From positions 1-33,065 of the forward strand of contig JAJYIS010000009.1 in assembly GCA_021789945.1 (NCBI GenBank): a stretch of DNA of 33,065 nucleotides. The letters are read 5' to 3'. The translations under genes and the position numbers were made by a program. Source of the stretch: Thermoplasmata archaeon (GTDB taxonomy: Archaea > Thermoplasmatota > Thermoplasmata > UBA10834). A model generated the notes under the pieces. The model was not told the DNA's origin, ran no database searches, and saw only the letters and a list, made by a program, of their open reading frames with translations. Within the stretch, counting starts at the first letter, position 1, and each line of letters starts with the position of its first letter. Shown here piece after piece: positions 3,607-25,113 of the stretch.

Positions 3607-4140
3607 TCACCACTCGATGCCTTTTCTCGCGCTCAGACCTTCCTTGTACGGATGCTTCCTCTCGTCGATGAAGGACACGTAGTCCGCGAAGTCCACGAAC
3701 TCCTGAGGAGCGTCCCTCCCCGTGAGGACGACTTCGATCCCGGGCCTCCTGGACCTGAGCACCGAGAGGACCGCGTCCGCGTCCACGAGGCCGAAGTGCA
3801 CGGCCACGTTCACCTCGTCCAGGATCAGGAGGTCGCAGTCGCGCCCGGCGAGAAACCTCCTTGCCAGTGCCATCGCGTCCGAGGAGCTCTTCCTGTCTTC
3901 CTCCGTTATCTTCTTGGGATTTACGAACCTGCCGGTGCCGAACTGATGCACCTGGACCTCGTCGATCCGCTTCAGGGCCACGACCTCCCCGGAAGTCATT
4001 CCCGTCTTCATGAACTGGATTACGCAGACCTTCAGGCCGTGCCCGGCCGCCCGGAGCGCTAGGCCGAACGCGGCCGTGGTCTTCCCCTTGCCGGGGCCGG
4101 TGAGGACGTGCACCCTCCCGAGGGCCTTGTCGGACTCCAT
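3607..4140 (-). CDS. cobO: Cob(I)yrinic acid a,c-diamide adenosyltransferase (CobO/BtuR family)
   Basis: MESDKALGRVHVLTGPGKGKTTAAFGLALRAAGHGLKVCVIQFMKTG...LLILDEVNVAVHFGL...VVLTGRDAP; characteristic GxGKGKTTAA P-loop and LDE motif. Confidence 0.9.
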   Translation of the reverse strand: MESDKALGRVHVLTGPGKGKTTAAFGLALRAAGHGLKVCVIQFMKTGMTSGEVVALKRIDEVQVHQFGTGRFVNPKKITEEDRKSSSDAMALARRFLAGRDCDLLILDEVNVAVHFGLVDADAVLSVLRSRRPGIEVVLTGRDAPQEFVDFADYVSFIDERKHPYKEGLSARKGIEW

Positions 4141-4178
4141 CGAACCACCGAAGGGACGAGCTACTAGAAAAGCAGGAG

Positions 4179-4700
4179 CTAGGCGTGGTCGTCGGGGGTC
4201 GAATACAACCTTCCCTGATCGCTTGGGAGCGTGAACTCCCGCTCGAGATATCCCATCTGCTGGCTGTCCATCGTGCGCGGGTCGATCGGGACGAGGAGGA
4301 ACGAGCCGGACATGGCGACCTCCTCGTTCGTTAGCTGTATCGTCTTCATGACCGGCCCGAAGCCGTTCTCCGTGACCAGGTATTCGATGCCGTCCAGGAG
4401 CACGGCCGAGCCCGGGTTCGCCTTGATGAAGTCGGCGATCGTGCCGTGGATCTTCATGAGACGGGTCGGCTCGAGGGTGATCACGCCCCCCACGGGCTTT
4501 GTGCTCTTGGCGATCCACATGACCGGGCAGTCGAGGCCGTAGGACTGCTGCACGCGGCTCGGGTGATTCCTAGAGATGACGAGTCCCCGCTTGCCCTCGG
4601 CCATGAGCGACTTGAAGGCGGCATACGCCCTCTCGACTCCCTTGTCCGTGAACAGGTATGAGCTGCCGCCCCGCAGACCCTGTTTGGGCTCGCCGTTCAT
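4179..4700 (-). CDS. DUF835-family protein
   Basis: GGSSYLFTDKGVERAYAAFKSLMAEGKRGLVISRNHPSRV...DFIKANPGSAVLLDGIEYLVTENGFGPVMKTIQLTNEEVAMSGSFLLVPIDPRTM; pattern matches archaeal DUF835. Confidence 0.8.
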   Translation of the reverse strand: MNGEPKQGLRGGSSYLFTDKGVERAYAAFKSLMAEGKRGLVISRNHPSRVQQSYGLDCPVMWIAKSTKPVGGVITLEPTRLMKIHGTIADFIKANPGSAVLLDGIEYLVTENGFGPVMKTIQLTNEEVAMSGSFLLVPIDPRTMDSQQMGYLEREFTLPSDQGRLYSTPDDHA

Positions 4701-4709
4701 GGTCCGTAT

Positions 4710-5384
4710 CTACCTCAGGCCAGCCTGGACTGCGAGCCCCTCGTCGGTTATGTCGATGAGCTGCCGCCCGGTCGTGTGCTTCGTCCCTCTCATCTTCAGG
4801 ACCTCGAGGAACTTCCGCCTGACCTTCTCCTCCTCGGGGTAGGAGAGCATGATGACGCCATCGACCATGTACGACTCCTGGCTGTGGGAGATGTCGTCGT
4901 AGGACAGCTCAGCGGTCACGAGGGTCACGCACTCGAACGCCTTGAGGTACGCGAACAGCTCGTGCATGAACTCCCTGGTCTCGCCCCTCCACTGCAGCAT
5001 GTCGGTCATCGGCGTGATGGGGTCGATGGCAATCCTGTTGGGCTGGAACTGCTCGATGTTCTTCTTGATGATGTTCAGCATGTCGCTCGGGTTCTTCAGC
5101 AGGGTCGGCCCGATGTCGATGAAGCTCACCACGCCCTTCTCGACCAGGCCCTGATCGTAGAACGTGAACGAGGACAGGAACTTCTGGACCAGCCACTGGG
5201 GCTCCGAGATCGCAGTGATGTAGAGCCCCTTCTCGCCCTGGCGCGCCCCGTGGAACAGGCTCTGGACGGCCAGCGTGGTCTTCCCTGTACCCGGCTCCCC
5301 CGCCACAAGTATGGCGGACGGGAACGGATAGCCCCCTTGGAGCATCCCGTCCAGTCCTGGGATGCCCGTGGTCTTCCTGGCCAT
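4710..5384 (-). CDS. KaiC/RecA-superfamily ATPase
   Basis: From ATG 5384: MARKTTGIPGLDGMLQGGYPFPSAILVAGEPGTGKTTLAVQSLFHGARQGEKGLYITAISEPQW...; KaiC-like Walker A GEPGTGKTT. The track start at 5465 overlaps the upstream gene and is less likely. Confidence 0.9.
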   Translation of the reverse strand: MARKTTGIPGLDGMLQGGYPFPSAILVAGEPGTGKTTLAVQSLFHGARQGEKGLYITAISEPQWLVQKFLSSFTFYDQGLVEKGVVSFIDIGPTLLKNPSDMLNIIKKNIEQFQPNRIAIDPITPMTDMLQWRGETREFMHELFAYLKAFECVTLVTAELSYDDISHSQESYMVDGVIMLSYPEEEKVRRKFLEVLKMRGTKHTTGRQLIDITDEGLAVQAGLR

Positions 5385-5385
5385 C

Positions 5386-5793
5386 TCACAGCACCTCCGT
5401 GTCGATGACGAAGACGCACTTGTCATCGCCCTTAGAGACGCATCTGCGCTCGTGGCAGTAGACATCCTTGCCTGTCCGCTCCTCGAACACCTTCGCGAGG
5501 ATCCCCCTCAGCATGTGGCATGTCGGAGAGTCGGAGTTTGACGCCTCGATGGACCCAATGACCGATATCGTGTCCCCCTCGAAGATGACATCGGTGGCCC
5601 AGCCCTCCTTGATGATTGCCTCCCTGACCTTGTTAAGGTCCTTGCCCGCCGATTTGATGAGCCGGTCGCCCATTATTCGGCCGCTCCTGTAGAACATGCC
5701 GTGCGACGCGAACGTCATGACGGTCTCGTACAGCTTCTTTATCTCAACGAGCTCCTCCTTGCGCATCTTGATAGAACGCTCAAGTTGCTCCAT
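5386..5793 (-). CDS. V4R (4-vinyl reductase-like) domain protein
   Basis: MEQLERSIKMRKEELVEIKKLYETVMTFASHGMFYRSGRIMGDRLIK...GWATDVIFEGDTISVIGSIEASNSDSPTCHMLRGILAKVFEERTGKDVYCHERRCVSKGDDKCVFVI; V4R pattern with Cys-rich C-terminus. An upstream start (5892) is possible. Confidence 0.75.
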   Translation of the reverse strand: MEQLERSIKMRKEELVEIKKLYETVMTFASHGMFYRSGRIMGDRLIKSAGKDLNKVREAIIKEGWATDVIFEGDTISVIGSIEASNSDSPTCHMLRGILAKVFEERTGKDVYCHERRCVSKGDDKCVFVIDTEVL

Positions 5794-5915
5794 GTGGACC
5801 ACCGGGTACTTGGGGGTTGCATCTATCTGTAAGTCAAGTCTTATAACTTTTGGTCTGGGTCCAGCACGCCAACTGACTGGAGCTGAACACATTCATCTAC
5901 TGCTAGCTTCTACAG

Positions 5916-11065: not shown

Positions 11066-12463
11066 ATGGGCCGACTGGTTTTTCCCACCGTGCGCGACCT
11101 CGATCCCTTCTTCAAGCCGAAATCTGTCGCAGTCATAGGCGCGACGCCGTTGCCGGGGAAGATAGGCAACATCATAATCGAGAACCTCTACAGCGACGGC
11201 TTCCCGGGCAAGATATTCCTCGTGAACCCCAACTACCAGGAGATCCTAGGGCTGAAATGCTACCCGACCGTGCTCGACCTCCCGGAGACGCCGGACATGG
11301 TCGTGGTGGTCGTACCAGCGAAGCTGGTCCCCGACGTGATGGAGCAGATCGGGCAGAAGGGGGTCAAGGCGGTGACGATCATCTCCGCCGGGTTCTCGGA
11401 AGGGGATGAGGAGGGCAAGCAGCGGGAGAAGGCGGTGCTCGAGGTCGCCAAGAAGTACGGGATCAGGATCGTCGGCCCGAACTCCCTCGGGGTCATCTCT
11501 CCCCACCACAAGCTCAACGCGTCGTTCGCGAGGATGGCACCGCTCGCAGGGTCAATAGCGTTCTTCTCCCAGAGCGGGGCGTTCTGCACCGCGGCGATCG
11601 AGTACTCGGTGAGCGAGATGCTGGGGTTCTCGGCGTTCGTCAGCTCGGGGAACAAAGCGGACGCAGACGACGCCGATTATGTCCGGTACTTCGCCTCAGA
11701 CCCGAAGACGACCTGCATCGCCGCGTACATGGAGTCGACCAGGAAAGGGCACGAGCTCTTCCTGGCACTGGACAGGGCCTCCAGGAAGAAGCCCATCGTC
11801 ATCCTGAAGTCCGGAAGGTCGCCGAGAGGCGCGAAGGCCGCGACCTCCCACACGGGCGCCCTGGCTGGCTCGGACGCGTCGTTCGACGCCGTGTTCAAGC
11901 AGACGGGGGTCTACAGGGCGAAGACCATGTTCGAGCTGTTCGACGCCGCGCAGGCGCTCTCCGGGCAGCCCCCGATGGTAGGGGACGGCATCGCCATCGT
12001 CACGAACGCCGGAGGCATGGGAGTCATCGCGACCGACTGCGCGAGCGACCTGGACCTCCCGCTCGCGGACCTCTCGAAGGAGACCCTCGACAAGATAGGC
12101 AAGGTCTGTCCGCCGACCTGGAGCTGGGGGAACCCGATCGACATCATCGGGGACGCCGACACCGCGAGGTACGCCAACGTCCTGCAGATCGTGGGCCAGG
12201 CCCCCGAAGTGAAGGGCATCCTCGTGATAGCCGCGAGGCAGGCGGCGACGAACCTATTCCAGATCGCCAAGTGGATATCCATAACCGCGAAGCTGAGCAG
12301 CAAGCCTACGGTCGCATGCTTCGCGGGAATCGAGGACCCCGAGTCCGAACAGTTCCTGGACGGCAAGGGGATACCCGTCATGTCCGTGCCAGAGCGCGCG
12401 ATAACGGCGCTGCATGCGCTCTCCGTTCGGGGCAAATACCTGCAGAAGAAGAAGCTGATCTGA
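11066..12463 (+). CDS. Acetate/acyl-CoA synthetase (ADP-forming), alpha subunit
   Basis: LDPFFKPKSVAVIGATPLPGKIGNIIIENL...GPNSLGVISP...SHTGALAGSDASFDAVFKQTGVYR; ends without an ATP-grasp (beta) domain. Confidence 0.92.
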   Translation: MGRLVFPTVRDLDPFFKPKSVAVIGATPLPGKIGNIIIENLYSDGFPGKIFLVNPNYQEILGLKCYPTVLDLPETPDMVVVVVPAKLVPDVMEQIGQKGVKAVTIISAGFSEGDEEGKQREKAVLEVAKKYGIRIVGPNSLGVISPHHKLNASFARMAPLAGSIAFFSQSGAFCTAAIEYSVSEMLGFSAFVSSGNKADADDADYVRYFASDPKTTCIAAYMESTRKGHELFLALDRASRKKPIVILKSGRSPRGAKAATSHTGALAGSDASFDAVFKQTGVYRAKTMFELFDAAQALSGQPPMVGDGIAIVTNAGGMGVIATDCASDLDLPLADLSKETLDKIGKVCPPTWSWGNPIDIIGDADTARYANVLQIVGQAPEVKGILVIAARQAATNLFQIAKWISITAKLSSKPTVACFAGIEDPESEQFLDGKGIPVMSVPERAITALHALSVRGKYLQKKKLI

Positions 12464-12469
12464 GCTTTA

Positions 12470-12595
12470 TCACCCTACGAGCTGCATGAGGATTATCACA
12501 GCCCCGAGTCCGATGAACACGAGGCTCGATATGAAACCTATCCAGAAGAGCCTCATCATGAACTTCCGGTCAGTCAAAAGCTTCTCGAGCGTCAC
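12470..12595 (-). CDS. Small single-TM membrane protein at the end of the A-ATPase operon (AhaG position); unlisted micro-ORF
   Basis: GTG start 4 nt downstream of the atpD stop: (M)TLEKLLTDRKFMMRLFWIGFISSLVFIGLGAVIILMQLVG*, 41 aa with one strong TM segment. Too short for the supplied track. Confidence 0.65.
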   Translation of the reverse strand: MTLEKLLTDRKFMMRLFWIGFISSLVFIGLGAVIILMQLVG

Positions 12596-12599
12596 TCGC

Positions 12600-13241
12600 T
12601 CACGCCTCTAATGCCTTCGCGGTCTTGCCCTTGATCCGCTTCAGCCTGAAGGTGTTGTCGCGCTCCATCTCCTCGAGCCTGAACCTGATGAACCGCTCGA
12701 CCTCCTCGAGGTCGGGGAGCACCTTGAACTCGAGGGCGTTCACCCGGCGCTTGGTCCGCTCGATCTCGTCCAGCAGCTTCTTCATTGTCGTCTCGAGCTC
12801 CGCGGCCTTGACCACGGTCTCGACCAGCTTCTCGTAGGCGTCCGTGGCCTCGTCTATCCTCGGGGAGGTCCCGATTATGCCATAGCCCCTCTCGTCCAAA
12901 GGAGCGACGATCCTGCTCGACTTGATGTCTGGCACCACGACCCCCATCAGGTTCCTGCTCCTGAGCTTGATCTCGGGATGGGTGGACAGCGCGTACGCCG
13001 CCGACCGGACCGCGATCGCCCCGTCGACAGCGTTCGCGACCGCGATCCTCTCTTGGGCCTCCCTGTAGCGCCTCGCGATCTCCACCCTGAGGTCCTTGGA
13101 CTGGTCGAGTATCTTGAAGAACTCGAGTATGAGCCCGTCCCGCTTGAGCTTGAGGATCTTGTGGCCGTTCTTGGTGAGCTTGATCTTCTTGGTCACCTCG
13201 AGCAGCTCGGACCGGGTGGGCTGGATCTCTCGCACGGGCAT
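12600..13241 (-). CDS. atpD: A-type ATP synthase subunit D
   Basis: MPVREIQPTRSELLEVTKKIKLTKNGHKILKLKRDGLILEFF...RTKRRVNALEFKVLPDLEEVERFIRFRLEEMERDNTFRLKRIK. Confidence 0.96.
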   Translation of the reverse strand: MPVREIQPTRSELLEVTKKIKLTKNGHKILKLKRDGLILEFFKILDQSKDLRVEIARRYREAQERIAVANAVDGAIAVRSAAYALSTHPEIKLRSRNLMGVVVPDIKSSRIVAPLDERGYGIIGTSPRIDEATDAYEKLVETVVKAAELETTMKKLLDEIERTKRRVNALEFKVLPDLEEVERFIRFRLEEMERDNTFRLKRIKGKTAKALEA

Positions 13242-13248
13242 CTGTCCA

Positions 13249-14628
13249 TCACTTCTTCTTCATGGTCGGGTGGTACTTCTCTATGAACTTGCGGTCGATC
13301 TTGGTGAGCGAGTCCACGGGCAGCGCGGACAGGAGCTCCCAGCCGAGGTCCAGGGTCTGCGCGATTGTCCTGTCCTCGTCCTTCCCCTGCCGTACGAACC
13401 TGTCCTCGAACGAGTCCGCGAAGTCGAGGAACTTCCTGTCGCGCTCGGACAGCGCCTCCTTGCCGACGATCGCCACCAGGCCCCTGAGGTCCCTTCCCTC
13501 CGCATATGCCGCGTAGAGCTGGTCCGAGACGGCCCTGTGGTCCTCCCTCGTGTGCCCAGGGCCTATGCCCTGGCCCATGAGTCTGGAAAGGGACCGCTCG
13601 ACGGCTATCGGCGGGAACACGCCCTTCCTGTGCAGATCCCTCGAGGCGACGATCTGCCCCTCGGTGATGTATCCCGTGAGGTCGGGGATCGGGTGCGTGA
13701 TGTCGTCGCCGGGCATCGACAGTATCGGGAACTGCGTGATCGAGCCCGTCTTGCCCTTGATCCTGCCCGCGCGCTCGTACATGCTCGCGAGGTCGGTGTA
13801 CATGTACCCTGGGTAGCCCCTCCTCGCCGGCACCTCCTCCCTCGCGGCGCCGATCTGCCTGAGCGCCTCGCAGTAGTTCGTGATGTCCGTGAGGATGACC
13901 AGCACGTGCATGTTCAGGTCGAACGCGAGGTACTCAGCCGTGGTGAGGGCGAGCTTCGGCGTGAGCAGCCGCTCGATCGCGGGGTCATCCGCGAGGTTGA
14001 GGAACACGACCGCCCGCTTCAGCGCGCCCGTCCTCTCGAAGTCCTGCATGAAGTACTGGGCCTCCTCGCTCGTGATGCCCATAGCGGCGAACACCACCGC
14101 GAACTCCTCCTTCTTCCCGACCACCTTCGACTGCCTCGCGATCTGGAGCGCGATATCGTTGTGCGGGAGCCCGGAGCCCGAGAAGATCGGCAGCTTCTGC
14201 CCCCTGACGAGGGTGTTCATGCCGTCGATCGACGATATCCCCGTCTGGATGAACTCGCGTGGGTTGTCCCTTGCCCACGGGTTGATCGCCGCGCCGATGA
14301 TCTCGAGCCTCTTCTCGGGTATGATCGGCGGGCCCTTGTCGAGCGGGTCCCCAGAGCCGGACAGTATCCTTCCGAGCATGTCCTTCGAGACCGGCATTTT
14401 GACGGTCTCTCCCAGGAACTTCACGCCCGAGGCCTTGTCTATCCCGCCGGTCCCCTCGAACACCTGCACGACGACGACCTCGTCCGATGAGTCCAGCACC
14501 TGGCCCCTCTTGGTCGAGCCGTCCGGGAGCGCGATCAGCACGAGCTCGCCGTACCCGACGGGCTCGGTCTTCTCGACGAACACGAGTGGACCTGCGATCT
14601 GGCTGATCGTGTGATATTCCTTGACCAT
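13249..14628 (-). CDS. atpB: A-type ATP synthase subunit B
   Basis: [32 protein letters not shown]...[20 protein letters not shown]...[20 protein letters not shown]...[12 protein letters not shown]. Confidence 0.97.
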
Positions 14629-14631
14629 GCA

Positions 14632-16374
14632 TCACACCCCCAGCTCGGCGAACTGCTTGTCCATCGACGCCGACACCGTCTTGATGTCCTGGTCGATCGT
14701 CTCCTCGAACTTCAGCTTGCCCAGGTCGGCCCTGCACTTCAGCGACGCTATCCTGTCCAGGGGGACCTCGAGCGCGATCGCCTTCTTCGCGAGCTCCGAG
14801 AACTTCCGGATGGCGCTCATGTAATCGTACTGCCGCTTGAGCGGGCTGTAGGTGTCGACCGGGTGGTACGCGCTCTGCTGCAAGAAGAACTCCCTGATCA
14901 TCCTCGCGACCTCGAGCGTCAGCCTCTGCTCCTCGGGGAGCGCGTCGGAGCCGACGAGCTGCACAATCTCCTGGAGCTCGGACTCCTTCTGGAGGGTCTC
15001 CATCGCCCACAGCCTCAGCTTGTTCCAGTCCTCGGCGACGTTCTTGACGTACCAGTCCTCGAGGATCGGGCTGTACAGGCTGTAGGAGGTCAGCCAGTTG
15101 ATGGCCGGGAAGTGCCTCCTCTCCCTCAGCTTCGAGTCCAAGGCCCAGAAGACCTTGACGATCCTCAGGGTGTTCTGCGTGACGGGCTCGCTGAAGTCGC
15201 CGCCGGACGGGGAGACCGCTCCGATCACGGATATGGAGCCGGTCTCTCCGCTCAGGGTCTTCACTCGGCCGCACCTCTCGTAGAACTCCGAGAGCCTGGA
15301 GGCGAGATAGGCGGGATAGCCCTCCTCGCCCGGCATCTCCTCCAGCCTGGAGGATATCTCCCTCATCGCCTCGGCCCATCGCGAGGTCGAGTCGGCCATC
15401 AAGGAGACATCATATCCCATGTCCCTGTAGTACTCGGCGACAGTGATACCCGTGTACACGGACGCCTCTCTCGCTGCGACAGGCATGTTGGATGTGTTCG
15501 CCACGAGGACCGTCCTTCCCATGAGCGGCTTGCCGGTCTTCGGGTCCTCGAGCTCGGGGAAGCTAGTGAGCACCTCGGTCATCTCGTTCCCCCGCTCCCC
15601 ACAGCCGACATAGACGACGATCTGCGCGTCGCTCCACTTCGAGAGCTGTTGCGAGGTGACGGTCTTCCCGGTCCCGAAACCTCCGGGAATCGCGGCGGTG
15701 CCTCCCTTCGCGAGCGGGAAGAGCATGTCCAGGACCCTCTGGCCAGTGACGAGCGGGATGTCCGGGAGCAGCTTGTCCACATACGGCCTAGAGTGCCTCA
15801 CGGGCCATCTCTGCATCAGCCTCATCTCGTGGCCGGAGTCGAGCTCCCCGATGGAGTCCTCGACCGCGAACTCTCCCTCGGATATGCTCGTGACCTTGCC
15901 CTTTGCGTCCGCCGGTAGCAGGACCTTGTGAACGATGTTGCCCTCCGGGACCTCGCCGATGATGGCACCGCCCTGGAGGTCAGCGCCCTTCTTCACCGTG
16001 GGGGTGAACTTCCACTTCTTCTGCCTGTCAAGCCCTGGCGCGGTGACGCCCCTGGACACGAAGTCCCCCTGCTTGTCCCTGAGGACAGGCAGCGGCCGCT
16101 GGACGCCGTCATAGACACTCGACAAGAGCCCTGGCCCGAGCTCGACCTGGAGCGGAGCTCCGGTGTCGACGACCTCTTCGCCAGGCCTGATGCCCGAGGT
16201 GTCCTCGTACACTTGGATGACGGTCTTGTCGCCGACCAGCTTGATGACTTCGCCCATGAGCTTCAGGTCGCCCACGAACACGACGTCGTACATCCTCGGC
16301 GAGACGCCCTGAGCTGTCACGACCGGCCCCGCCACCCTAGTTATCTGTCCCTTCTTCTTCTCTGCCATACTCAC
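14632..16374 (-). CDS. atpA: A-type ATP synthase subunit A (catalytic)
   Basis: [27 protein letters not shown]...[41 protein letters not shown]...[32 protein letters not shown]; no intein. Confidence 0.97.
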
Positions 16375-16384
16375 CGCACTCCCG

Positions 16385-16684
16385 CTAACCAGACTTGTAA
16401 AGGTCGATCCCCATCGCCTTTCGAACCTTATCCCTCATGTCGCCCTCGTCCTCTCCCACCGGGATGACGACGGGGTCGACGCTCGCCATCATCTTCGTCC
16501 TCAGCTGCGGTGGCAGCCTCTCCAGGTCCTTCGTGTGCACCGCGAGTATGCCCACACTCTCTTCGTCCATGACGCGGACCAACGTCTCCATCAGCTTGTC
16601 CGGCGTGACGCTGTACACCTTCCTTATGCCCGCGAGGCGAAAGCCCGTCACGAACTCCTCGGAACCCACGACAGCTATCTCCAT
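16385..16684 (-). CDS. atpF: A-type ATP synthase subunit F
   Basis: [26 protein letters not shown]...[27 protein letters not shown]; operon position. Confidence 0.93.
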
Positions 16685-16685
16685 G

Positions 16686-17756
16686 TCACACCACCAGCAG
16701 CTCCTCGATCACCTTGGTCGAGAGGCCGCTCTGCTTGCCCCTCGATATTATCCTGATGTTGTCCACTTCCACCTTCTTGCGTATCATGTAGTTGACTATC
16801 GGCAACACGGAGAGAGGGTAGAAGTGGGCGAACTTCTCGCTCGTGCCTACAAGCGCCTTGTCCAGCGAGATCGTCATCGCGGACAGCTTCTTGTCCTGCT
16901 TGAACTTCTCGAGCCCGGGCTTGATGGCCTCGTACATCGAGGATTTCTCCATCTCCTCAACGATCTGCATCATGCCTTCGCCCTGGGCCATCGCGCGCAG
17001 CCTGTCGATGCCGTACTCCATCCCGCCCGGGATGAGGTACTTCGCGATCCTCTCCTCGGGGATCCTCTCCGCCTTCAGCTTCAGGAGCACCTTCAGGTTG
17101 GTGACGTCGACCTCCTTCCTGATGAAGTCCCTCAGCAGCTTGTTCGCCCTCTCCCTGCCCCTGACGACCTTGAGCAGGTCGTAGTAGAGGTTCTTGTCCA
17201 GGTGGTCCTCGAGCCTGGCGATCCGCTGCGAGTCGACGACCTCGCGGACCAGCTCCTGCGTGATCCCGAGGGACGGCTCCTGCACGAGCGCGTCCATGAC
17301 CTCGTGCACCGAGGTCATGCTCACGAGCGACCTGAGGTAGGCCTCCGAGAATGCGCCCGCGGGCACGAGCGTGTCGAGGATCTCCTCGTCGCTTGCCCCC
17401 GTAAGCTTGCCCCTCAGGACGGTCTTCACGTTGAACATGTCCCACCGCTTGAGGTAGTTCCCGACCATGTCCCTGAGGTGGCCCGTGGTGAAGCTCAGTA
17501 TCGCGGAGTAAGTGTCCGCGAGGTTCCTGGTGACCGCCACCTCGACAAGGTTCGCGCCCGAGTACTTCGATCCGTACTTCGTCATCTCGCTCCTGTACTG
17601 GGTCTCGCCGAGGAACCTCCCAATCTCGTGGACGTCCATCACGAGCAGCCTCGAGTAGGCATCCCTGGAGAGCAAGAACCTCTTCTTCGCCTTGACGCGC
17701 GCGCACGCGTATGCGAAATTACCGCGATTCCCTGATAGCCACATCCTCGCGCTCAC
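16686..17756 (-). CDS. atpC: A-type ATP synthase subunit C
   Basis: NFAYACARVKAKKRFLLSRDAYSRLLVMDVHEIGRFLGETQY...; a GTG start at 17756 overlaps the atpE TGA (GTGA), so this start is preferred over 17798. Confidence 0.93.
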   Translation of the reverse strand: MSARMWLSGNRGNFAYACARVKAKKRFLLSRDAYSRLLVMDVHEIGRFLGETQYRSEMTKYGSKYSGANLVEVAVTRNLADTYSAILSFTTGHLRDMVGNYLKRWDMFNVKTVLRGKLTGASDEEILDTLVPAGAFSEAYLRSLVSMTSVHEVMDALVQEPSLGITQELVREVVDSQRIARLEDHLDKNLYYDLLKVVRGRERANKLLRDFIRKEVDVTNLKVLLKLKAERIPEERIAKYLIPGGMEYGIDRLRAMAQGEGMMQIVEEMEKSSMYEAIKPGLEKFKQDKKLSAMTISLDKALVGTSEKFAHFYPLSVLPIVNYMIRKKVEVDNIRIISRGKQSGLSTKVIEELLVV

Positions 17757-18310
17757 CCGAACAGCATCTCGTATATCTTCCGCATGTCTTCGTTCCACAC
17801 GTCATCCAGGATGCTCTCGAAACGATAGTCCAGCCGGACCGTCCTGTCCATGCTCTCGAACACGAGCCCGCCGGAGCATTCGACGGTCCCGCCGGGCCTG
17901 AAGCCCGGCGGAAGCGACAGCAGCGCCTTGTCGGCCTTGTTCGAGTACACATAGCACTCCCCGAGCTCCTTTTTCGCCTTCGCCGTGAGCTTCGAGTACA
18001 GCTTCTTCCTGCGCTCTGGCGGGAGTCCCGCGATCCTCGACAGTGCCCGCTCCTTCAGAAGGTCCATCATGCTCTTCCGGGCCATCAGGAGCGCCTTCTT
18101 CGACTCGAGCTCGGCGCTTGAGATCTCCTGCTGCTCCATCTGGGCGATCGCAGACGCGAGGGCCCCTTCGGCCTTCGCCCTCGACTCGGCGATCCTCTTG
18201 CCAGCATTGGCGATGAGCTCGTCCCGCTCATGCTCGCCGGCCCTGATAACCTCAGCCTTCTTCTCCTCGCCCTTTCGGAGTATCTCGTCGACCACCTTGT
18301 TCAGACTCAT
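17753..18310 (-). CDS. atpE: A-type ATP synthase subunit E
   Basis: MSLNKVVDEILRKGEEKKAEVIRAGEHERDELIANAGKRIAESRAKAEGALASAIAQ...; operon position. Confidence 0.93.
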   Translation of the reverse strand: MSLNKVVDEILRKGEEKKAEVIRAGEHERDELIANAGKRIAESRAKAEGALASAIAQMEQQEISSAELESKKALLMARKSMMDLLKERALSRIAGLPPERRKKLYSKLTAKAKKELGECYVYSNKADKALLSLPPGFRPGGTVECSGGLVFESMDRTVRLDYRFESILDDVWNEDMRKIYEMLFG

Positions 18311-18371: not shown

Positions 18372-18611
18372 TCACGTCTTTCCGAGCAGCAGGTAAGCCA
18401 CGACGAAGCCGAGGATGACGATCGTCTCGGGGAGCACCATCAAGATCATGCCCCTTCCGAACATCTTCGGGTCCTCTGCCGTCGCGCCGACTGCCGCCGC
18501 ACCGATCTGGGCCTGCGCTACGCCGGTGCCGAGGCCCGCGACTCCAATCGCGATGCCGGCGCCGATCAACGCTAGGCCTGCTCCTACCGCCGTCTGTGGG
18601 TCCAGTGCCAT
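18372..18611 (-). CDS. atpK: A-type ATP synthase subunit K (rotor c subunit, two TM helices)
   Basis: MALDPQTAVGAGLALIGAGIAIGVAGLGTGVAQAQIGAAAVGATAEDPKMFGRGMILMVLPETIVILGFVVAYLLLGKT. Confidence 0.96.
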   Translation of the reverse strand: MALDPQTAVGAGLALIGAGIAIGVAGLGTGVAQAQIGAAAVGATAEDPKMFGRGMILMVLPETIVILGFVVAYLLLGKT

Positions 18612-18624
18612 TTCTTTTCGCCTC

Positions 18625-20610
18625 CTATTCCGTTGCCGTGGAATACTTCCGCTCGTAGGTCAAGGGCTGGAACTCCGTCCCGCCGCCCTCGAAGAACTTG
18701 AGGAAGAACTCCACATAGTTCAACCTGATAGCCTGGATCCCTGCCGAGAGGGCTCCCAGGAAGAACACGAAGAACGCCTGCGTGATGAACAGCGCGAGCG
18801 CGCCGAGGACCGCGAAGGCGATGTTGCCGCTGAAGATCAGCGGGAACATGAGCGAGTTGAACGCGAGCGCCATCGCGCCCTTCCCGACCGCGAGCGCAGC
18901 CAGCCTCGTGTACGAGACGAGGTTCGTGAACAGGCCGATCACCTCGCTGAGCGCGAGAGGGCCTTCCGTGAACGGCAGGGCGATGACGCCGATGACTATG
19001 AGCACGACCGCCGGCACGGAGACCTTTATGCCTATCAGCATGAGGATGTTGTGGGGCATCATCGAGAACACCGTCGAGTTGACGAATGCGCTCGTCTGGG
19101 TCGCATTGCCAGCGACTGTCATTATCTCCTCGAAGAGCCCGAAGAGCACGATCAGCCAGGCGATTTTGCCGAGCGCGTGCTTCTTGTTGTGGCGCAGGTT
19201 GTTGAACACGCCGAAGACAAGCCCGAGCGTGAGGTGAAGCCAGCCAGCGAGGAGCGATATCCCTAGCATCTCCTGGATGTCGTGCATCTTGTCCAGCATC
19301 GGGTGGATCGGTATGTTCCCCAAGACCTCCCACGAGTACCCGCCCTCGCCGGAGCTCGGGTGGAAGGGCACGCCGAACGCCTCCGCGAAGACGAACGTGC
19401 CGAATATCGATGCCAGGATGCCGCCGGCCAGGATTATGGTCCCGAGCTGGTAGAGGTCCTTGCTGCTCTTCATCTTAATCATGATGAGGGCCCCGAGGGC
19501 CATCAGGCATAGCCCGAAGCCCAGGTCCCCGATCATGAACCCGAAGAAGAGCGGGAATGTGATGAACAGGACGAGGGTCGGGTCGATCTCCTCGTACTTC
19601 GGAGTCGAGACGAGGTTGATGAAGAACTCGAAGGGCCTTACGAGCCTGGGGTTCTTCAGCTTCACCGGGGGCTCCTCCTCCTTCTCCTGGGGCACCGTCT
19701 CGACGAAGACGGTCCCGCAGCAGAGCTTATCGAGCGCGCCCTGGACCTCCGCCATCTTCGAGTTGGGGATCCAGCCGTCGATGACGAACGAGTTGGAGGT
19801 CGTGGCTATCCTCAGGGGCGTCTCCGCCTTGAGCACCTCGATCGTGAGGTCCTCCTCGGACGCGATGATGAAATCCGCGAACTGCTTCCTCACGGATCCG
19901 AGGTCATTCTCGATCCTCTCGAGATCCTTCTGCAAATCCGCGATCTCGGCCCCCAGCTGGTCCGTGAGCTTCGCGGGATCCCCGGACAGCTTGGGCAGCT
20001 TCATCTCCTGGAAGCCGTTGTCGGCCAGGATCCTGGCGACCTCGGGCCGTTCGCTGTTCCCGACGAACACCGAAACCTGGAGGTCCCCCTTCCGGGCGAG
20101 CTTCATGAGCTCGTAGTCCTTGACCTTCTTTTCCAGGGCATCCTCTGGGTCCTGCTTGCAGGTGCCGACAAACACCGAGATGTTCTCGTAGCCTTCGAAC
20201 AGCTCGACCGGCACCCCGAACGACCTGATCGGCTCGAGGGCACGGATCTCCGCCTCCCGCTCGCGTATCAGGGACTGTATCTTCTGGCGGGCCTCGGCCT
20301 TGCTCGATGTGTTCAGGTCGAGAGTAATCAGCGCCTGCTCGAGCTTCCCCTTCATGTCCTTGGTGTCGAGCCTCTTCTCGGGGCGGTGGGATTCGATCTC
20401 GAGAGTCCGGATCATCGAGCGCAGCTTGAGCAGTTTCTGAGAAGCGTCAGAGGCCTTCGGAAGCGGCTGGCCGAGCTTGAACTCCTCGTCCTGCTTTGTG
20501 AAGTCTATGAGGTGCAGTATGCCGAGCTCGTAAAGGCAGTCGATCGTCTTGTCGAGGCTTTCGATAGAGCCGACCACGACTGCCCGGGTCATCTCCTCCG
20601 GTCTAAGCAT
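18625..20610 (-). CDS. atpI: A-type ATP synthase subunit I (a subunit)
   Basis: MLRPEEMTRAVVVGSIESLDKTIDCLYELGILHLIDF... followed by a multi-TM C-terminal half (FPLFFGFMIGDLGFGL..., EVIGLFTNLVSYTRLAALAVGKGAMA). Confidence 0.95.
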   Translation of the reverse strand: MLRPEEMTRAVVVGSIESLDKTIDCLYELGILHLIDFTKQDEEFKLGQPLPKASDASQKLLKLRSMIRTLEIESHRPEKRLDTKDMKGKLEQALITLDLNTSSKAEARQKIQSLIREREAEIRALEPIRSFGVPVELFEGYENISVFVGTCKQDPEDALEKKVKDYELMKLARKGDLQVSVFVGNSERPEVARILADNGFQEMKLPKLSGDPAKLTDQLGAEIADLQKDLERIENDLGSVRKQFADFIIASEEDLTIEVLKAETPLRIATTSNSFVIDGWIPNSKMAEVQGALDKLCCGTVFVETVPQEKEEEPPVKLKNPRLVRPFEFFINLVSTPKYEEIDPTLVLFITFPLFFGFMIGDLGFGLCLMALGALIMIKMKSSKDLYQLGTIILAGGILASIFGTFVFAEAFGVPFHPSSGEGGYSWEVLGNIPIHPMLDKMHDIQEMLGISLLAGWLHLTLGLVFGVFNNLRHNKKHALGKIAWLIVLFGLFEEIMTVAGNATQTSAFVNSTVFSMMPHNILMLIGIKVSVPAVVLIVIGVIALPFTEGPLALSEVIGLFTNLVSYTRLAALAVGKGAMALAFNSLMFPLIFSGNIAFAVLGALALFITQAFFVFFLGALSAGIQAIRLNYVEFFLKFFEGGGTEFQPLTYERKYSTATE

Positions 20611-20944
20611 CCACGGTCCTCTCAAACTCGTCCAGGATGAAAGCTTCGGCCTTGCTCATCCTCTGCTGAGCGTTCGATTTGAGGGCCTCGGCCTTGAGCG
20701 CGCCCTCGTCGAGAAGCTCCCTCTTCTGCGATTCGATGCGCGACTTGGCGTCCGAGAGCCGTCGGTCCATTTCCTTCCTGTGGGCGGCCTCGGAGGCGTC
20801 GATCTTCTCTATCGCTATCCGCTTCCCCTCGGCCTGGAGCTGCTTTCGCTTTTCCTCGGCCTCCTTAGTCGAAACGCGGACCTTCTCCTCTGCGTCCTTT
20901 ATCTGTCGAAGGATCTCCGCCTTCTCCAAGTCAGTCACAGCCAA
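20603..20944 (-). CDS. atpH: A-type ATP synthase subunit H
   Basis: TTG at 20944 or GTG at 20938; VTDLEKAEILRQIKDAEEKVRVSTKEAEEKRKQLQAEGKRIAIEKI... coiled coil; first gene of the operon. Confidence 0.88.
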   Translation of the reverse strand: MAVTDLEKAEILRQIKDAEEKVRVSTKEAEEKRKQLQAEGKRIAIEKIDASEAAHRKEMDRRLSDAKSRIESQKRELLDEGALKAEALKSNAQQRMSKAEAFILDEFERTVDA

Positions 20945-23664: not shown

Positions 23665-25113
23665 ATGATAGAAGAGCCCGTAGGGGGGCAGTTGGAGATA
23701 CTCTCCAGGAGCGAACTGGACAGGATACACGGCGCAACGATGGAAGTCTTGCGGAAGGTCGGGATAAAGGTCTGGGAGCCGCAGTCGTTCTCGCTGTTCA
23801 AGAACGCGGGGGCGGAGGTGGACTCGAAGACCCTGATGGTCAGGCCGTCCGAGAGCCTGGTCAAGGAGACCGTCAGGAAGGCGCCCTCGGAGTTCTATAT
23901 GTACGGCCGGGACCCGAAGTACAAGCTTCACATGGGAGCGAGGAAGGTCCATTTCTCGGTCGCCGGCCAGACGATCAGGATGCTGGACGCGGACGGGAAG
24001 GTGCGGTCGCAGGTCCTCAAGGACAGCGAGAACGTCGCGAAGGTGGCCGACTGGTGCTCTCACATCCACCACGTGTCGGTCGGCACGACGCCAAAGGACG
24101 TGCCGGACGACATCCACCCGCTGTATCACATCGCGGCGGACTGGAGGAACTCGGTCAAGACGACGGACGGATACAACTACGGGAAGCGGCTCTCGACAGA
24201 GACCATGGAGATGCTCTCCATACTCAGGGGAGGGGAGGACCAGATGCGGAAAACGCCCACCCTCCTGGGATTCACCAACCCCGTGAGCCCCCTCCAGCTC
24301 TCCAAGGAGCTCATGGAGGGCGCCATCGTCTACGCGAAGAACAACCAGCCGATGCTCTACGCGCCCGAGGCCCTTTCCGGCGCGACCGCGCCCGCGACCC
24401 TCGCCGGGCTGACCGTGCAGCAGAACGCGGAGGTGCTCTCGGGAATCATGGTCTCCCAGCTCGCGAACCCGGGCGCGCCTATCTTCTACGGCACGGTCTC
24501 CGCGGCCATGGACATGAAGACGGGCGCGACCGCGCTGGGCGGGCCCGAGGTCGGCCTGCTGAACGTCGCCGCGGCCCAGCTGGCACGCTACTACAACCTG
24601 CCGTGCAGGGGCACGGGCGGGAACACGGACTCAAAGACCCTCGACCCGCAGGCGTTCATCGAGACCTCGACCAGCCTGATGATGGCGAGCCTTGCGGGGA
24701 TGAACTTCATATACGACGCGGCCGGGTCGTTGGACGGCAGCCTGACGATGTCCCTCGAGAAGATCGTGATCGACAACGAGCTCGCCGGGATGGTCGCGAG
24801 GACGCTGGCTGGGATCAAGGTCACCGACGAGACTCTGGCAGTGGACGAGATACTCAGGGCGGGGCCAACCGCGAGCTACCTCTCGACGCCTTTCACGGCC
24901 CGGATGTTCAGGAGGGAGCACTTCATCCCGGAGATGGCCGACCGGAAATCCAGGGAGGCCTGGCAGAAGGATGGCGGCAAGGACATGGTCGACCTCGCGA
25001 AGGAGAAGGTCAGATGGATCCTGAAGGAGCACCACCCTGACCCGCTCGACAAGGACGTGAGCGCGAGGCTGGACAGCTACCTGAAGAAGGTCTCGAAGGA
25101 GCACGGTCACTGA
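23665..25113 (+). CDS. Trimethylamine methyltransferase MttB-family protein (COG5598), non-pyrrolysine type
   Basis: 482 aa uninterrupted: LSRSELDRIHGATMEVLRKVGIKVWEPQSFSLFKNAGAEVDSKTLMVRPSESLVKETVRKAPSEFYMYGRDPKYKLHMG...VHFSVAGQTIRMLD...GGEDQMRKTPTLLGFTNPVSPLQLSKE...; no in-frame UAG. Confidence 0.9.
   Translation: MIEEPVGGQLEILSRSELDRIHGATMEVLRKVGIKVWEPQSFSLFKNAGAEVDSKTLMVRPSESLVKETVRKAPSEFYMYGRDPKYKLHMGARKVHFSVAGQTIRMLDADGKVRSQVLKDSENVAKVADWCSHIHHVSVGTTPKDVPDDIHPLYHIAADWRNSVKTTDGYNYGKRLSTETMEMLSILRGGEDQMRKTPTLLGFTNPVSPLQLSKELMEGAIVYAKNNQPMLYAPEALSGATAPATLAGLTVQQNAEVLSGIMVSQLANPGAPIFYGTVSAAMDMKTGATALGGPEVGLLNVAAAQLARYYNLPCRGTGGNTDSKTLDPQAFIETSTSLMMASLAGMNFIYDAAGSLDGSLTMSLEKIVIDNELAGMVARTLAGIKVTDETLAVDEILRAGPTASYLSTPFTARMFRREHFIPEMADRKSREAWQKDGGKDMVDLAKEKVRWILKEHHPDPLDKDVSARLDSYLKKVSKEHGH

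Follow-up and report, generated by a model that had tools for sequence, protein, structure and literature searches.

In Methanosarcina mazei the aha operon, which encodes the archaeal A-type ATP synthase, closes with ahaG, the gene for a protein of 6.3 kDa. Heterologous expression of AhaG yielded a band of the right size; the subcomplexes obtained from E. coli expressing ahaA-G contained A, B, C, D and F but lacked G, and proteomics of M. mazei did not detect it, a result that does not exclude its presence (PMC4350412). Homologues were thought to be absent from several archaea (PMC4350412), and the gene has been reported missing in Thermoplasmatales of acid mine drainage and in T. acidophilum (PMC3750248). 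Published descriptions of the operons of M. acetivorans (PMC2838876) and Methanohalophilus mahii (PMC3017947) list nine genes and no AhaG. The name AhaG is a known orphan; what is new here is that the range of the family is far wider than recorded. Our search of openly accessible papers found no account of the spread of the family or of the K-G-K gene order described below.

Other rotary ATPases offer points of comparison. The AtpI/UncI and AtpZ proteins of bacterial F-type synthases are also small membrane proteins encoded in the synthase operon, and are dispensable and thought to help assembly; they have two or four transmembrane (TM) helices, and no homology to AhaG was seen. The TM helices of Voa1p/Ac45 and ATP6AP2 lie inside the c ring. 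Yeast Voa1p (human Ac45/ATP6AP1) and ATP6AP2 are members of the Vo sector of the eukaryotic V-ATPase (PMC10352029), and their possible likeness to AhaG is functional only, with no sequence relation claimed. Unlike AhaG, these Vo accessory proteins carry large luminal domains.

The stretch of DNA analysed here, called the window, comprises 33,065 nt of contig JAJYIS010000009.1 from a Thermoplasmata archaeon. Its GC content is about 60%, and no tRNA was found in it. A preliminary description had reported a GTG-initiated micro-ORF of 41 aa on the same strand as atpD, 4 nt after the atpD stop, behind an operon of the order H-I-K-E-C-F-A-B-D. The coordinates and the translation, (M/V)TLEKLLTDRKFMMRLFWIGFISSLVFIGLGAVIILMQLVG, proved exact, and the operon is complete in the order given, with D, B, A, F, C, E, K and I recognized by Pfam and H, whose translation had no match in Pfam, by tblastn (Table 1).

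Table 1. Features of the ATP synthase operon and of the ORF behind it (positions in the window)
Feature	Position	Strand	Evidence or remark
AhaG-family gene, 41-aa single-TM protein	12470..12595	-	GTG start; stop codon included
GAGG, possible ribosome-binding site	12605..12608	-	in atpD 3' end, 13 nt upstream of GTG
atpD (ahaD), central stalk subunit D	12600..13241	-	Pfam PF01813, E 4e-57
atpB, subunit B	13249..14628	-	Pfam; 74% identity to M. mazei B (PDB 2c61)
atpA, catalytic subunit A	14632..16374	-	Pfam
atpF, subunit F	16385..16684	-	Pfam PF01990
atpC, subunit C	16686..17798	-	Pfam PF01992; real start may be more internal
atpE, peripheral stalk subunit E	17753..18310	-	Pfam PF01991
atpK, c subunit (proteolipid, one 2-TM hairpin)	18372..18611	-	Pfam PF00137
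atpI, subunit I/a	18625..20625	-	Pfam PF01496
atpH, peripheral stalk subunit H	20603..20944	-	tblastn match to the gene that opens other archaeal ATP synthase operons, E 1e-12 to 1e-14

A GAGG element is found at -13/-14 in most genomes of the same family as the window; because these letters also encode the C-terminus of AtpD, their conservation is no proof of a ribosome-binding site. Downstream, an acyl-CoA synthetase-like gene on the plus strand (11066-12463) converges on the ORF, leaving 6 nt (12464-12469) between the two stop codons, and a search for an intrinsic terminator-like site at this convergence found none. Elsewhere in the window, a V4R-domain ORF is followed directly by a KaiC-type ATPase ORF (4713-5892, minus strand), possibly a small-molecule-sensing pair. 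There is also a CobO-type corrinoid adenosyltransferase (3607-4200, minus strand), and an MttB-family methyltransferase ORF (23665-25113, plus strand) runs in one frame with no in-frame TAG. Other substrates are known for MttB relatives that lack pyrrolysine.

A conserved reading frame behind atpD was looked for in relatives, and an intact one, free of frame-breaking indels, lies directly behind the gene in every one of the 18 same-family genomes with atpD, the window's own genome included. The 41-aa ORF was detected by tblastn in 17 of the 19 genomes of the family, always immediately behind atpD; in an eighteenth (G018) it was recovered at the same place by position and profile, and the nineteenth (G002) is an assembly without atpD and so falls outside the count of 18. 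Mean pairwise differences within the family are 0.41, 0.24 and 0.53 at codon positions 1, 2 and 3, and the median pairwise dN/dS is 0.39 over 112 non-independent pairs, beside a median of 0.25 for AhaG of Methanosarcinaceae. The ORF of the window family is under purifying selection and, judged by its conservation, is a genuine gene.

Relationship to AhaG was examined with profiles built outward from Methanosarcinales. Using M. mazei AtpB (PDB 2c61) as query, 80 named Methanosarcinales loci were collected, and AhaG of 46-62 aa was found behind atpD in Methanosarcina, Methanolobus, Methanococcoides, Methanohalophilus, Methanomethylovorans and ANME-2 loci. When 60 whole genomes from the window's relatives were searched with a profile of AhaG alone (A1), the best matches were the post-atpD ORFs of G054 (E 7e-15), G020 (3e-8), G046 (4e-7), G024 (1e-6), G058 (2e-5), G033 (3e-5) and G019 (1.6e-4). 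A second profile (A4), made of AhaG plus intermediates and containing no sequence from the window family, gave the post-atpD ORF as the top whole-genome match in six window-family genomes (G008, G012, G018, G013, G016 and G017; E 2e-5 to 6e-3). A match of this profile on contig C205 of G021 (E 1.8e-4) was rejected: it falls in a TM segment of another gene, transporter-like and far from any ATP synthase gene, and single genome matches near 1e-4 are for this reason unsafe on their own. The linking intermediates belong to four families of the window's class (f2, f6, f15 and f20). By hhalign, AhaG matched the intermediates at E 3e-16, the intermediates matched the window family at E 6e-11, and AhaG matched the window family directly at E 1.3e-5 (probability 80%). 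All three scores exceeded those of 60 out of 60 local, composition-preserving column shuffles that retain the hydrophobic architecture. Homology between the window ORF and Methanosarcina AhaG is well supported, chiefly via the intermediates, and the preliminary guess of an AhaG counterpart holds beyond mere position: on these profile comparisons, the window ORF belongs to the AhaG family as a diverged representative.

The resemblance to M. mazei AhaG extends to the place behind atpD, the single TM helix, and an Arg/Lys-Ser-Gly core with the same spacing. The two differ in that the window ORF has 41 residues against about 55-59, lacks the acidic/DRPN N-terminal extension, and has Arg where M. 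mazei AhaG has the Pro of its PEN motif; direct pairwise similarity is low. Across the family the core consists of an Arg or Lys at the membrane edge (87%), a Ser (86%) and a Gly (100%) within the membrane, plus an aromatic Trp, Phe or Tyr, and its residues are present in the window as R15, S24 and G31. The near-invariant Ser and the invariant Gly of the TM helix are spaced seven residues apart. One-sided conservation of the TM helix is suggested weakly by its helical periodicity, for which the best segment gave an uncorrected p of 0.04. At the kink site, AhaG has an acidic residue or Thr followed by Pro, and the window family has Arg instead of Pro. This PEN-motif Pro is invariant in 26 Methanosarcinales sequences; since the homologues from Archaeoglobus also lack it, it does not define the wider AhaG family.

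The preliminary description had also foreseen a charged N-terminus and one TM helix. In the AlphaFold2 model of the 41-aa protein (mean pLDDT 92), residues 3-8 form a helix, a break falls at D9, and a second helix spans residues 10-40, a prediction that fits a short interfacial helix followed by one TM helix, with membrane insertion deduced from hydrophobicity. The N-terminus is probably cytoplasmic; the charges favour this orientation in the window family and less clearly in others, where the positive-inside signal is modest. Compared with Pfam, NCBIfam and the PDB, the AhaG family returned nothing above cut-offs.

One earlier suggestion, that the ORF might encode a subunit peculiar to its lineage, is wrong: the window's class, Thermoplasmata, has homologues in at least seven further families, and beyond the class they are present in Methanosarcinaceae, Methanocella, Methanothrix-like genomes and Archaeoglobi. 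A sample of 149 genomes from the Methanosarcina phylum contained 35 with matches at E 7e-5 or better, presumably including those of Methanocella, Ferroglobus and Geoglobus, along with Methanothrix-like sequences. The match lies directly behind atpD in 34 of them and between c genes in the remaining one (G075). Eight weaker matches (1.4e-4 to 0.02) came mostly from Archaeoglobus. Seven of the eight share an operon with atpD and lie some 5.5 kb upstream of it; the last (G193) comes from an assembly that has no atpD. Among the genomes of this sample that have atpD, no match outside the operon was better than E 0.0185.

The family is also missing in places. Behind atpD of Methanoperedenaceae (L099, L103, L113, L122, L126, L139, L141, L144 and other loci) no AhaG was found, and searches elsewhere in their genomes gave nothing convincing (none of 12). 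Their sister groups, ANME-2 and Methanosarcinaceae, do have the gene, and this is a clean lineage loss. No G was found in the haloarchaea-like and several other genomes examined. Because some lineages do without it, AhaG must be dispensable somewhere and would not be required for catalysis. In an AtpD tree with 125 rows the presence of G is strongly clustered (12 changes, compared with 41.7 when the labels are shuffled), and the rows with G fall for the most part in one clade of 93 (support 100/98) that unites Methanosarcinales, Archaeoglobi and the window's part of its class. Three rows labelled as having G on weaker matches (L028, L029 and L173) stand outside this clade, and some deep joins of the tree involve long branches.

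Other small ORFs occupy similar places. In three further families of the class (f9, f10 and f18, the last of which we take to include Thermoplasmataceae), an unannotated TM ORF of 36-63 aa follows atpD, often just before an ahaH-like ORF (L062-L066, L068, L070 and L071). Considered as AhaG candidates, these ORFs between D and H showed no significant similarity and are positional look-alikes only, which may reflect extreme divergence or replacement. Within the Methanosarcina phylum sample, an operon of the order I-K-C-H-F-A-B-D (G091) has a 72-aa ORF with two hydrophobic segments after K (L231:4050-4265), which by eye looks AtpI/AtpZ-like.

An informative departure from the usual arrangement comes from seven genomes (L183-L189), among them presumably those of A. 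fulgidus, A. profundus and A. veneficus, in which an AhaG homologue of 60-66 aa sits between two c-subunit genes (at about 1030-1790 of each locus) and the operon reads I-K-G-K-E-C-F-A-B-D. This homologue shares with the window ORF a single TM helix, the same operon and the same core (EKN..ERF.KYYW..ST.R...G), and differs from it in length and in standing between c genes and not behind D. The paired c-subunit products are identical in these genomes, apart from one with a single deviating residue, a pattern suggestive of gene conversion or a recent duplication around the AhaG homologue. The presumed Ferroglobus and Geoglobus genomes have a single K and keep G behind D. Three metagenome-assembled genomes of Archaeoglobi read I-K-E with no G, an order that could stem from collapse of the K repeat during assembly, and others end at K, contigs of this group being prone to break where the c genes are duplicated. 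Direct comparison of the Archaeoglobi set with the window family gave no significant similarity; the putative link between them runs only through AhaG and the class intermediates. That the gene holds two positions in one operon, behind D and between c genes, argues for a role in the membrane sector, AO, either as a subunit or as an assembly factor.

The identity of the window ORF could be doubted in two ways. Its length of only 41 codons, together with the ACG found at the usual start in 2 of 17 same-family genomes, might suggest a chance open frame at the end of an operon and no gene at all. Against this stand the 18 intact frames out of 18, the pattern of differences by codon position, and a background, drawn from class loci, in which none of about 136 long genes other than atpD is followed by a TM ORF of 34-70 aa (145 were screened, and all nine matches were atpD genes), so that a chance frame is scarcely credible. 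Alternatively, the gene might be real and its resemblance to AhaG convergent, an unrelated TM micro-ORF having come to lie at the same position. The direct similarity is, after all, modest, and the reciprocal search fails, the window-family profile of only 41 positions having recovered no AhaG from 12 Methanosarcinales genomes at E 1 or better; moreover, f9, f10 and f18 do possess, behind D, a small TM ORF in which similarity to AhaG could not be detected. We nevertheless consider convergence very unlikely, given that the intermediate families tie strongly to both sides, that the R/K-S-G core aligns free of gaps and with equal spacing, and that the post-atpD ORF is the best whole-genome match in six window-family genomes.

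As to role, we think it fairly probable that this diverged AhaG-family gene encodes a single-pass membrane protein acting as a small accessory or assembly subunit of AO. The protein would be made together with D from the same transcript; a short interfacial helix at its N-terminus, a kink and an Arg or Lys at the membrane edge would lead into the TM helix, whose Ser/Gly face would pack against the c ring or subunit I, so that AhaG would assist AO without being essential to catalysis. Location, stoichiometry and function are what we infer from these features, with a site perhaps at the c ring, as the K-G-K order hints. An accessory or assembly subunit had been proposed at the outset; the proposal is still an inferred one, and the neighbourhood of c genes in Archaeoglobus makes it likelier. 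Many members of the family start with a 4-nt overlap of the D stop, which suggests that their translation is coupled to that of D, a one-copy subunit. A stronger version, in which AhaG is an authentic one-copy AO subunit ancestral to the clade of Methanosarcina, Archaeoglobus and Thermoplasmata and lost several times, its helix threaded into the c ring or resting against it, beneath the central stalk, as an analogue of the Voa1/Ac45 helix, strikes us as rather unlikely. AhaG-family proteins might instead regulate the synthase, for example by blocking wasteful ATP hydrolysis, and not build or brace AO. Small operon-encoded proteins often regulate, the distribution is that of a non-essential gene, and in the same organisms bioenergetic complexes are known to have small regulators, MtrI on Mtr being an example (PMC12774963). 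Yet the conserved part of AhaG is nearly all membrane helix, which leaves little in the cytoplasm that could reach A3B3, and a gene that always accompanies D or K is more suggestive of constant production than of conditional use; a regulator seems to us unlikely. Less likely still is a small membrane protein that merely shares the operon transcript and works elsewhere. The end of the operon, where the gene stands in most cases, is an easy place for a passenger, and physical contact with the synthase is putative; but the same operon has been kept across very distant archaea, the move in Archaeoglobus stayed inside it, between c genes, and the search of genomes with atpD gave no better match outside it than the one noted above.

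With AO as its probable place of action, the AhaG family, one that Pfam and NCBIfam lack, stays within a single operon even on changing its place there. A doubtful ORF becomes a specific, testable candidate subunit, for which Methanosarcina offers a tractable test organism, and the old question of a tenth subunit of the archaeal ATP synthase, an extra small membrane subunit, becomes directly testable.
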